Shown: positions 19,822 through 25,688 of the stretch, piece after piece
Position numbering within the stretch: position 1 is the stretch's first letter
How the letters are laid out: each line of letters opens with the position of its first letter
Assembly (NCBI GenBank): GCA_947259575.1
Contig: CAMYMU010000029.1
Location: forward strand, 62,001-126,000
From: an uncultured Ectothiorhodospiraceae bacterium
Lineage (GTDB): Bacteria > Pseudomonadota > Gammaproteobacteria > UBA6429 > Thiohalophilaceae
Direction of reading: 5' to 3'
DNA length: 64,000 nucleotides
Program-made: the position numbers and the translations under genes
The notes under the pieces: model-generated
The model's database searches: none
What the model was told of the DNA's origin: nothing
The model's input: the letters and a program-made list of their open reading frames with translations, nothing else

Positions 19822-20850
<1,029 letters not shown>

Positions 20851-20859
20851 TAACAACTA

Positions 20860-20889
20860 AAGGCCGCTAGCAAGCGGCCTTCTTCTTTT
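20860..20889 (+). terminator. Rho-independent terminator after ilvC
   Basis: Perfect nine-base inverted repeat AAGGCCGCT (20860-20868) / AGCGGCCTT (20873-20881) with a four-base loop, followed by CTTCTTTTA. It separates ilvBNC from the Psd-like gene, although the T-run is interrupted and some read-through is likely. Confidence 0.8.
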
Positions 20890-20907: not shown

Positions 20908-21510
20908 ATGATCGCGCCGGAAGGCAAATTGATTGTTGGTTTGCTGTTGTTAGCAATGCTGGCGCTGCACTTGACGGTCGGCTTTATTGCCTGGCCCCTA
21001 TGGGGACTGGTGATAGCTGTTGCCTATTTATACCGTAATCCAAGGCGAATCATTCCATCAGCACCATTAGGTGTAATTAGCCCCGTTGATGGTACGGTCG
21101 TTGAGGTTCAAAATAAATTTGACACATTTCTGAAACGTGAAGCGCTTACGATTGGGATTCAGATGAGCTGGTCGGGTGCGTATGTTCTGCGTGCAATTAC
21201 TGAGGGTAAGATTATGCAGCACTGGTTGCACGAAACCGACAGTGATACACAAGGACACTTACAACATGCCATCTGGATTCAAACGGATGAGCAGGATGAT
21301 GTCATTATTGCGATTCATGCTGGAGGGCGTTTCAGACGTATGCATTGTTACGCATCAGTTGGAGAACGAGTGGGACAGGGTAAACGCTGTGGCTTTATTC
21401 CCTTTGGAACCAGAATCGATATTATCTTACCGATAAAAGCTAGAAGCAAAATTAACGTCGGCGACAAAGTGCTGGCAGGAAGCGATTTAATTGCTGAATT
21501 TGTTCATTAG
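20908..21510 (+). CDS. Phosphatidylserine decarboxylase-like protein lacking the self-cleavage serine
   Basis: Membrane-anchored homologue of the short (about 200 residue) phosphatidylserine decarboxylases: two N-terminal hydrophobic segments, then RNPRR (43-47), SPVDGTVVEV (58-67) for the usual PADG motif, and CGFIPFGTRIDIILP (161-175). In the active family the last motif is FGS, and the serine becomes the pyruvoyl cofactor after cleavage. Here it is FGT (166-168). The conserved His of the family's xVHxxR segment is also missing (AYVLR, Tyr92). It is therefore probably not a working decarboxylase. GGGAG precedes the ATG. It lies between ilvC and pssA, where such genes are often found. Confidence 0.8.
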   Translation: MIAPEGKLIVGLLLLAMLALHLTVGFIAWPLWGLVIAVAYLYRNPRRIIPSAPLGVISPVDGTVVEVQNKFDTFLKREALTIGIQMSWSGAYVLRAITEGKIMQHWLHETDSDTQGHLQHAIWIQTDEQDDVIIAIHAGGRFRRMHCYASVGERVGQGKRCGFIPFGTRIDIILPIKARSKINVGDKVLAGSDLIAEFVH

Positions 21511-21560: not shown

Positions 21561-22349
21561 ATGGGACAACGTACAAAAGAGCTCCGTCGTCGCGGTATCT
21601 ATCTGATACCGAATCTACTGACACTTGCCGCCTTATTCTGCGGTTTCTTTGCCATTGTTGCCGCTACCAAGGGCTGGTTTGACTGGGCAGCCTATGCCAT
21701 TTTCAGTGCGATGATTTTTGACGGTGCTGATGGTCGGGTTGCACGTTGGACCAATACACAGAGCGACTTTGGTGCCGAGTTCGATAGCCTGGCAGATATG
21801 GTTTCATTTGGTGTCGCACCTGCATTGATTATGTTCGAATATGCCCTTGGGAATACTGCACAGCTCGGTAAAGTTGGTTGGTTAGCAGCCTTTATTTACA
21901 CCGCGGCGGCAGCTTTACGCTTAGCACGCTTTAACACCCAGGTTGGGATTGCCGATAAGCGATATTTTCAAGGCCTGGCGAGTCCTTCGGCAGCAGCGAT
22001 TGTGGCGGGTTATGTATGGGTCTGTCACAAATATCTGGATACACATCCTGTGTTAAATGTGATTGCGGTCTTCATCACGATTTGTGCCGGTGTTTTGATG
22101 GTAAGTAACATTCGCTACCATAGTTTTAAAGGTATCGATTTCCGTTCCAAGATTCCTTTTGTCGGCATGGTTGCGATTGTGATGGTCATCGCTGTCGTCT
22201 TTTCTGAACCACCCATTGTGTTATTCGCGATCTTCCTTCTGTATGCTATTTCGGGCCCCATCCTGACCTTAAACGAATTACGTAAACGTCAAAAAGAAAG
22301 ACGACGTGCTCGAAAGGACGATTCGAAGCACGCCGATTCTCATCAATAA
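21561..22349 (+). CDS. pssA: CDP-diacylglycerol-serine O-phosphatidyltransferase
   Basis: Integral membrane type II-like phosphatidylserine synthase of 262 residues, making phosphatidylserine, the precursor of phosphatidylethanolamine. The CDP-alcohol signature is intact: DG-RV-AR ... G71 ... D75 ... D79 (residues 57-79, DGRVARW ... GAEFDSLAD). The fold has several membrane helices and a basic cytoplasmic C-terminus (RKRQKERRRARKDD). It follows the Psd-like gene by 50 bp. A competent Psd must be encoded elsewhere if phosphatidylethanolamine is made. Confidence 0.92.
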   Translation: MGQRTKELRRRGIYLIPNLLTLAALFCGFFAIVAATKGWFDWAAYAIFSAMIFDGADGRVARWTNTQSDFGAEFDSLADMVSFGVAPALIMFEYALGNTAQLGKVGWLAAFIYTAAAALRLARFNTQVGIADKRYFQGLASPSAAAIVAGYVWVCHKYLDTHPVLNVIAVFITICAGVLMVSNIRYHSFKGIDFRSKIPFVGMVAIVMVIAVVFSEPPIVLFAIFLLYAISGPILTLNELRKRQKERRRARKDDSKHADSHQ

Positions 22350-22391: not shown

Positions 22392-22904
22392 TTAAAAATG
22401 CAGATTAAGACTCGCCGTATAAAGGTCGACATCGCCACCATCGACATCTAGAAACGACTGGTATTCGCCACGTAAGGAAAGGTGATGCGCGAGTTGGGCC
22501 TGTATACCAACACCAAAGGTGGTATCTGTGCCGGTATTTGAGGCGAAAGCGGTCGCGACTTCCCAATCGAAAAATCCTGCTCGACCATACAAATCAATAT
22601 TGCCTGAAACTGGAATGTAACCAATGAGTTCATAACTAATGCCATCCTGGGTGAGGACACCATTAACGTAGCTACCCAGGTCAACATAACCTAGCTCTAG
22701 TCCAATATGTGGAGTGAGATTGACTCCACCATAGAATTTGAAGGCAGACTCATCTTCATTCAGGATATCATCATGCGCCGAGCCAGCTCCGATACCGATG
22801 TATGGACCAGGCTGTGCAGCCTGCGCGGCATTCACTGGAATCATGGTTGCAAGGCCGAGGCTGAGAAATAAGGCGCAACTTTTCAGGGATGTGGTCATTG
22901 TCAT
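22392..22904 (-). CDS. Outer membrane beta-barrel protein (OmpA/OmpW-like porin family)
   Basis: Exported protein of 170 residues. GAGGAG six bases before the ATG sets the start. The signal peptide ends near AQA-AQPGP. The mature part begins PYIGIGAGSAHDD and alternates polar and hydrophobic residues in short strands (KFYGGVNLTPHIGLELGYVDLG), ending with an aromatic residue (LNLHF), the outer membrane insertion signal. Predicted eight-stranded barrel. It has no OmpA wall-binding domain. Monocistronic and convergent with pssA. Function unknown. Confidence 0.8.
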   Translation of the reverse strand: MTMTTSLKSCALFLSLGLATMIPVNAAQAAQPGPYIGIGAGSAHDDILNEDESAFKFYGGVNLTPHIGLELGYVDLGSYVNGVLTQDGISYELIGYIPVSGNIDLYGRAGFFDWEVATAFASNTGTDTTFGVGIQAQLAHHLSLRGEYQSFLDVDGGDVDLYTASLNLHF

Positions 22905-24938: not shown

Positions 24939-25688
24939 TTGGCCCTGACACCACAACAACAAGCCTATCTCACTAGCATGGGGGTGACCGTCTGGGCGGA
25001 TCAGTCTGCCCCGGATATTGTCCAGCCGGCTCCTGTCACCTCGGATTCTGTCTCACCGACACCAGTAGCCGGTTTTGGCGGCAATCCTGGAGCATCAAAA
25101 ACACCATCGCTTAATCTGGATATCACTAGTTTAGACTGGACTGATTTAGCCGATATGGTGAGCACCTGCACGGCGTGTGATCTACATACCGGGCGGACCC
25201 AGGCCGTCTTCGGTGTCGGTAACCAGCATGCAGACCTTCTGATTGTGGGTGAGGCCCCTGGCGCAGAGGAAGACCGCCACGGTGAACCCTTTGTCGGGCG
25301 TGCCGGTCAGCTACTCAACGAAATGCTCCGTGCGATTGGTTTGCAGCGAGAGTCGGTTTATATTGCCAATATCCTCAAATGCCGACCACCGAATAACCGT
25401 GACCCCAAGCCCGAAGAAGCTGAACAGTGCGTGGCGTACTTGTATCAGCAGATTGCATTATTGAAACCCAAACTGATTGTCGCGGTAGGGCGTATTGCAG
25501 CCCAGCGTCTGCTAAAAACCGATACCGCGTTGTCTAAATTACGCAGCAAGGTCCATGTGCTGGCCGAGACCCAAACGCCATTCGTAGTGACTTACCATCC
25601 AGCTTATCTACTTCGTGCGCCGTTGGAAAAACGTAAAGCCTGGCAAGATCTTCTGTTTGTGAAAAAGACACTGGCATCAACGCAATAA
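24939..25688 (+). CDS. Family 4 (Fe-S) uracil-DNA glycosylase
   Basis: DNA repair enzyme removing uracil from DNA, 249 residues. TTG start at 24939 with AGGAGA upstream. The first 65 residues are a Pro/Ser-rich region with no recognised domain. Four cysteines for a 4Fe-4S cluster are visible: C77 and C80 (STCTACDL), C148 (LKCRPP) and C164 (EQCVAYL). The active-site motif GEAPGAEEDRHGEPFVGRAGQLLN (from 104) and the second motif TYHPAYLLR agree with UDG family 4. It lies next to rimI, a neighbourhood typical of gammaproteobacteria. Confidence 0.92.
   Translation: MALTPQQQAYLTSMGVTVWADQSAPDIVQPAPVTSDSVSPTPVAGFGGNPGASKTPSLNLDITSLDWTDLADMVSTCTACDLHTGRTQAVFGVGNQHADLLIVGEAPGAEEDRHGEPFVGRAGQLLNEMLRAIGLQRESVYIANILKCRPPNNRDPKPEEAEQCVAYLYQQIALLKPKLIVAVGRIAAQRLLKTDTALSKLRSKVHVLAETQTPFVVTYHPAYLLRAPLEKRKAWQDLLFVKKTLASTQ

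Follow-up and report, generated by a model that had tools for sequence, protein, structure and literature searches.

A phosphatidylserine decarboxylase relative without its active site in the ilvC-pssA slot of Gammaproteobacteria, possibly kept for a second function

The window analysed here, a stretch of 64,000 nucleotides from an uncultured Ectothiorhodospiraceae bacterium, carries between ilvC and pssA a gene for a relative of the short-type phosphatidylserine decarboxylases (Psd) from which the catalytic residues have gone. It belongs to a family of such relatives, labelled ‘pPsd’ here, whose members have lost most of the active site, group as a single clade in our trees, are under purifying selection, mostly keep the same gene slot and mostly occur in genomes that hold another Psd. 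We tentatively propose that pPsd is a dead, membrane-anchored Psd derivative, kept for a second function that predates the loss of catalysis and that most likely involves PssA; taken as a whole, this may well be right, though we stop short of calling it probable. In this model, pPsd would descend from a short Psd that once filled an ilvC-psd-pssA slot. With a long-type Psd on hand elsewhere, catalysis would have been lost and the second function alone selected, residing in nine fixed residues on the Psd barrel, adjoining the membrane helix. That the protein is kept for a function already present in the still-intact Psd is a component that we consider likely in its own right.

The coordinates of the gene, its motifs and its neighbours are collected in Table 1. 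A sequence-only reading of this stretch had described a Psd relative without the histidine and serine of the active site, lying between ilvC and pssA; translation and alignment place RNPRR, SPVDG (residues 58-62), Tyr92 and FGT where that reading had them, the Gly-Ser self-cleavage site is absent (G167-T168 instead), and the flanking genes identified in the window agree with the position that it gave. The best 19-residue hydropathy within the first 48 residues is 2.5 in the window protein, and at least 1.6 in 123 of 126 pPsd sequences.

Table 1. Positions in the window of the pPsd gene, its motifs and its neighbours
Feature	Position	Strand	Remark
ilvC, upstream neighbour	19834..20850	+	
Strong terminator-like hairpin with T-rich tail, directly after ilvC and before pPsd	20860..20881	+	
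pPsd open reading frame, 200 aa, ATG start	20908..21510	+	Relative of short Psd without catalytic residues
N-terminal hydrophobic helix, residues 4-41, probable membrane anchor	20917..21030	+	AlphaFold2 model, hydropathy
RNPRR, residues 43-47, arginines kept from intact Psds	21034..21048	+	R43 94%, R47 95% of 126 pPsd
P53-L54, pPsd-specific	21064..21069	+	P 98%, L 93% of 126 pPsd vs 44%, 8% of 48 intact
Tyr92 codon, replaces catalytic His (E. coli His144)	21181..21183	+	Alignment
E99, near-invariant in pPsd	21202..21204	+	125/126
TDEQDD turn, residues 126-131	21283..21300	+	D127, E128 in 126/126 pPsd
GERVGQGKRC, residues 152-161	21361..21390	+	G152, R154 in 126/126 pPsd
F166-G167-T168, degenerated self-cleavage site	21403..21411	+	FGS in intact enzymes
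pssA (CDP-alcohol phosphatidyltransferase), downstream neighbour	21561..22349	+	PF01066
Small outer-membrane beta-barrel gene between pssA and leuA, inverted	22392-22904	-	PF13505

The only Pfam match of the window protein is PF02666 (55.6 bits against a cut-off of 22); 11 NCBIfam models of Psd type also match it, all under their cut-offs (the best, NF003680, at 131.1 against 262 bits), and the equivalog cut-off for an active Psd is not reached. Across the 31 family members tested, PF02666 matches every one, with E up to 0.001, and none reaches the NCBIfam cut-offs, directly so for the window protein and by implication from the best E-values for the other 30. Since pPsd stands above the cut-off of the Pfam Psd family, automatic annotation may well name it a Psd, and so report an enzyme of phosphatidylethanolamine (PE) synthesis that is none. 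Literature searches, judged from their listings, turned up no publication describing a dead Psd homologue in bacteria. One proteomics paper reportedly uses the name ‘phosphatidylserine decarboxylase-related protein’.

With the window protein as query, 29 of 58 related genomes gave a match, of which alignment showed one, in G014 (E 0.001), to be spurious. When a profile built from 31 relatives was used, 127 of 369 Gammaproteobacteria genomes matched, and 121 of these were classified: 19 with an intact short Psd (bearing both His and Ser) and 102 with pPsd. In some of the 102, G324 and G350 among them, the locus counted is a fragment or a repeat. The six left unclassified comprise fragments (G159, G221), weak matches (G060, G086, G222) and a match too broken to assign (G362). 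Omission of nine duplicate loci before any residue counts (L003, L034, L041, L042, L163-L167), and of nine short or identical matches in seven loci (L011, L029, L031, L104, L157, L161, L162), left 148 sequences; 22 are intact, defined as having His92 and Ser168, and 126 are pPsd, which by that definition can never have both together. These 126 come from 54 family codes plus six loci without a code. In a phylum-wide sample 157 of 299 genomes matched, and the 29 loci read from it (L195-L223, 18 of them from outside Gammaproteobacteria) all carry the His and FGSR. Among the matches listed from outside the class, the best reaches 126 bits, where the window protein has 295; as some in-class pPsd score lower still, pPsd beyond Gammaproteobacteria is conceivable.

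Our 48 intact comparators are 20 of the 22 together with 28 of the 29 loci L195-L223, one being a repeat. L159 (G391) and L160 (G186) fit the definition of ‘intact’ but were kept out, as they are of a third, long-branched short Psd-like type (DVHVQR and LGST) found away from the ilvC-pssA slot in genomes where pPsd occurs as well. A further pPsd genome carries a canonical short Psd beside a low-identity ilv-pssA-leuA (L033, G030:C283), perhaps on a contaminating contig or through transfer.

Position 92 of the 126 pPsd is Tyr in 72, Phe in 37 and His in two. The missing histidine cannot be put down to chance, given that 124 sequences spread over so many family codes lack it; every one of the 48 intact comparators has the residue, 20 of them having been selected for it. 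At position 168 we find Ala in 34, Arg in 28, Gly in 24, Ser in 21 and Thr in nine, such that FGT is a local variant within the family. Of the two changes highlighted by the sequence-only reading, loss of the histidine is therefore near-fixed in the clade and FGT is not; and the damage, which that reading had put at two residues, extends to most of the substrate and cofactor site. Relative to the 48 intact enzymes, most columns of the FMNxFxVHxN motif, the PGxFxNA loop and the QxAGLxARRI strand are kept in at most 20% of pPsd, the exceptions being M86 (58%), V91 (27%), G139 (40%) and R144 (37%), and the phosphate-binding columns are almost empty of their residues (F85 0%, G110 2%, F112 2%, N114 4%). 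In an alignment with the long type, the lost motif columns stand opposite E. coli Tyr137, His144 and Ser166-Val167; in the published account of that enzyme, Tyr137 and Ser166-Val167 contact the lipid phosphate and His144 the leaving carboxyl group (PMC7952604). Across 20 active-site columns, hand-picked from the comparison of the two kinds, each pPsd keeps 0-6 and each intact comparator 18-20, a contrast that follows from the choice of columns itself.

Judged from these alignments, pPsd has almost certainly lost the ability both to make its pyruvoyl cofactor and to decarboxylate phosphatidylserine (PS). Threonine is chemically possible as a cleavage residue, and a decarboxylase that remains active with Thr168 in that role has to be weighed; we find it scarcely credible, with Ala, Arg or Gly at this position in 86 of the 126 sequences, the substrate site mostly gone and complete Psds in the same genome. 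According to PMC7952604, E. coli PSD self-cleaves by means of D90/D142-H144-S254, and His144 mutants still cleaved to a degree in time but showed no decarboxylation; the His and Ser of this set are both absent from the window protein. Our literature search found no report on cleavage by an E. coli S254T mutant. The sequence-only reading had also offered a PS-binding protein, which would make use of the old substrate site. The fold, the membrane helix and the interface arginines are all kept, as such a protein would want, but the columns opposite Tyr137 and the Ser166-Val167 loop are lost, and the His likewise (2% retained); because the phosphate loop has gone, PS binding in the manner of a Psd is disfavoured, and we hold this suggestion to be very unlikely.

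Set against these losses is a group of residues that the family has fixed. Nine sites (P53, L54, E99, D127, E128, D130, R154, G156 and Q157) are 93-100% conserved in pPsd and 6-44% in the intact enzymes; they are all the columns reaching at least 90% in the former and less than 50% in the latter, and the contrast again follows from that criterion. All nine are present together in 102 of the 126 sequences, with a minimum of six, and both kinds have in common a scaffold of R43, R47, P59, G100, G152, G158, P175 and G185. Of 19 pPsd pairs compared, two were saturated and the other 17 give dN/dS values of 0.03-0.18; the family is under purifying selection. The view taken by the sequence-only reading, of a pseudoenzyme (as regards Psd chemistry) kept in a lipid-gene slot, is thereby supported. 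A decaying pseudogene would explain the loss of active-site residues and the empty slot of some relatives, but hardly the dN/dS values, the new residues found in up to 126 of 126 sequences, or the listed profile matches, which are free of internal stops save for one TAA in G220; it is the least credible of the readings considered here.

In a tree built without the motif columns and rooted on alphaproteobacterial enzymes, all 42 of the pPsd sampled (from the 126, with 12 named long, odd or near-duplicate rows left out and columns 53-54 retained) form one clade (100/100) nested in the intact short Psds. A stricter tree, from which columns 53-54 and the hand-picked active-site columns were removed as well and three further rows omitted, again gives one clade for 40 of 40 (100/100), on a bootstrap that had not settled. 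With a single pPsd clade inside the intact enzymes, catalysis would most simply have been lost once.

The 50 sequences bearing both His and Ser provide some insight into the order of events. Forty-six of them score 0-3 on the nine sites and four score more: L064 (8), L069 (8) and L098 (7), all of f111, and L111 (7), of f83. Each of the four has all 20 active-site columns, and their genomes (G146, G262, G360 and G345) show a single PF02666 match and no other Psd. The best tree puts the three f111 enzymes together with pPsd, with support that is not firm (78/89), and the stricter data do not reject a tree in which the two are joined (p-AU 0.54). L111 falls elsewhere, with L125 and L141 (98/89); forcing it into the clade of pPsd and f111 costs 25 log units and is not rejected either (p-AU 0.16), and given that worse likelihood its new residues may be convergent. 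Whichever placement is right, the new residues occur together with an intact active site in the only Psd of a genome, where no other Psd can account for them. From these four carriers we infer that the new residues were probably on hand, and the second role with them, before catalysis was lost.

As for other Psds, the window’s genome holds two further PF02666 genes, both long-type with catalytic motifs: L001, an E. coli-like long Psd of 296 aa (DYHRIHMP and NMGST), and L002 (1288-2181 of G000:C39), a second of 297 aa (MYHRFHAP and QHGST). The sequence-only reading would have been in difficulty with a genome devoid of any other complete psd; there are two. Two strong PF02666 matches are also seen in six relatives (G001, G003, G008, G015, G019 and G026). 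More widely, all 19 intact-form genomes have one PF02666 match and no other Psd, and 97 of the 102 pPsd genomes, the window’s included, have a conventional Psd elsewhere, as judged by a best PF02666 E-value below 1e-25, the places of most not being listed. For this contrast Fisher’s p is 6e-18, a value to be read with the caution that a loss in one event leaves the genomes phylogenetically non-independent. The pPsd genomes in which no other Psd was found are G123, G226, G252, G275 and G350, and L001 as query, in a search that had no positive control, gave no match in them; since PF02666 is missing altogether from 27 of the 369 genomes, most of these exceptions could be down to gaps in the assemblies. 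Two of them, G252 (L106) and G350 (L104), belong to one genus and are 95-96% complete, with pssA and pPsd present and no conventional Psd detected.

Co-occurrence on this scale raises the idea, voiced in the sequence-only reading, that pPsd is the partner of another Psd, that is, a dead paralogue which binds and activates the active enzyme. There is precedent in another pyruvoyl-dependent decarboxylase, the AdoMetDC of trypanosomes, whose ‘prozyme’ is a catalytically dead paralogue (PMC5201418); pPsd resembles it in being a paralogue without catalytic residues that is under selection. The prozyme, however, activates its own paralogue, whereas the conserved residues of pPsd mostly occur also on the four intact enzymes in whose genomes no other Psd was found. 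The two other Psds that were read, L001 and L002, are moreover of the long type, a different subfamily, and the 22 genomes chosen for lacking pPsd have one or two conventional Psds each all the same. A partnership of this kind is, by analogy with the prozyme, distinctly unlikely, even though most pPsd genomes do hold another Psd.

We favour instead the retained second function, and its object may be sought in the gene slot, where the usual neighbour pssA encodes the step that comes before Psd in the pathway. In the window the order is ilvB-ilvH-ilvC-pPsd-pssA, followed by the inverted outer-membrane-protein gene and then leuA; ilvC upstream and pssA downstream are both found at 112 of the 126 pPsd loci, one of the two at eight and neither at six. 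Terminator-like hairpins occur in 26 of 113 ilvC-pPsd gaps (mean 1.5 and maximum 4 in 30 shuffles) and in three of 113 pPsd-pssA gaps (shuffled mean 0.3, maximum 2); the scanned gaps average 167 and 112 bases respectively, a difference too small to explain the contrast. Relatives L006, L009, L010, L019, L022 and L025 have hairpins like the window’s at the same place. The case for a terminator rests on this recurrence, as the same scan across the window region gives six sites against 4.4 expected. Such recurring hairpins between ilvC and pPsd suggest that pPsd-pssA is probably a transcription unit of its own, headed by pPsd.

Several pPsd reading frames, of 568-577 aa in G097, G252 and G350 and longer frames in G158 and G272, had looked like fusion proteins. 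At L051, L058, L106 and L112 the added part runs over ilvC in a different frame, an open-frame artefact rather than a fusion; L104 (G350) lay outside this check, and its pPsd is identical to that of L106.

Across 67 of the 126 loci, the distance correlation of pPsd with PssA, given IlvC and IlvH, is 0.30, compared with 0.14 for IlvH and 0.09 for IlvC. Saying this, PssA and IlvH correlate about as strongly (0.28), and we rejected the rate correlation as a PssA-specific signal. No PssA column at least 90% conserved alongside pPsd (112 sequences) falls below 70% in the PssA of genomes with an empty slot (16 sequences). In the Woeseiaceae-type genome G202 the only PssA match lies elsewhere and is 35% identical. 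Of the 22 pPsd-free genomes, for all of which the ilvC region was read, 16 have pssA directly after ilvC, with too little room for pPsd except at L170; PssA therefore does not need pPsd generally. In the other six, the flank lacks pssA, the ilvC is of a distant type, or leuA follows ilvC. The exception, L170 (926-1501, G009), has a 575-base ilvC-pssA gap that is repeat-bearing by eye, with no pPsd match or frame of pPsd length.

PssA as the object of the second role is thus a weakly supported best guess, suggested by the slot and by the transcription unit that the two genes probably share. It is conceivable, if rather short of probable, that pPsd made from a pPsd-pssA transcript serves as a non-enzymatic docking or regulatory factor for PssA, tuning or localising PS synthesis. 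More speculatively still, pPsd could represent an unrecognised gammaproteobacterial family that gained its second function while active, shed its active site after another Psd had taken over and now acts as a membrane factor controlling phospholipid synthesis, with the f111 and f83 enzymes as intermediates doing both jobs. In any event pPsd belongs to a known enzyme family as its dead offshoot, and the stages through which it may have arisen are unusually well documented. If the second role is true, the slot holds a natural experiment, with intact enzyme, apparent intermediate and dead descendant in the same place; whether the new function came before catalysis was lost could then be tested at the bench, and the role itself would point to an unrecognised way in which the conversion of PS to PE is controlled in bacterial membranes.

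The main rival to a role with PssA, which we think unlikely though worth taking seriously, is that E99, D127, E128, D130, R154 and Q157 form a newly arisen site, either catalytic or for binding a ligand such as a metal or lipid head group, and that pPsd acts independently of PssA. The fixed residues are mostly charged or polar, and in an AlphaFold2 model (from eight sequences; mean pLDDT 81.9, pTM 0.74), with its long N-terminal helix at residues 4-41 and a mostly beta domain, a turn joining two strands is predicted to hold TDExDD, and a loop most of GERxGQG. The residues also persist where pssA no longer adjoins: the six loci without either neighbour are all Woeseiaceae-type and retain 7-9 of the nine, and intact enzymes carry them too. 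Conservation in turns may, however, be structural, and the comparisons brought up no known enzyme site; Foldseek and VIA indicate a common barrel fold, with EIIA-Glc nearest among solved structures, followed by M23-type proteins, E. coli PSD and PsiD. A sequence search of solved structures with the window protein gave nothing credible (best E 0.95).

The best match of the model, which was built from eight sequences only, is 3our_B (Z 15.4 over 126 residues, 17% identity); a predicted barrel is all that pPsd would have in common with the EIIA-Glc phosphocarrier and M23 peptidase folds, and no common function is claimed. E. coli PSD (7cnx, long type) matches with a VIA Z of 10.0 over 121 residues for one cleaved chain, its two cut chains not being directly comparable with the single-chain matches. 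The closest known system remains the short-type Psd (PF02666) of the ilvC-psd-pssA slot, which has the domain, similar length, hydrophobic N-terminus, interface arginines and slot in common with pPsd; the difference is that pPsd mostly lacks the catalytic His, cleavage Ser, phosphate loop and AGLxARRI strand, and has nine other residues fixed.

Finally, in three of the Woeseiaceae-type loci (pPsd at 5980-6606 of L036, 1678-2301 of L037 and 3056-3682 of L105), where ilv, pssA and leuA are absent from the spot, pPsd lies near genes that we take from their sequences to be udg, rimI and prfC; what is presumably a UDG-like gene is also found after leuA in the window, at 24939-25688.
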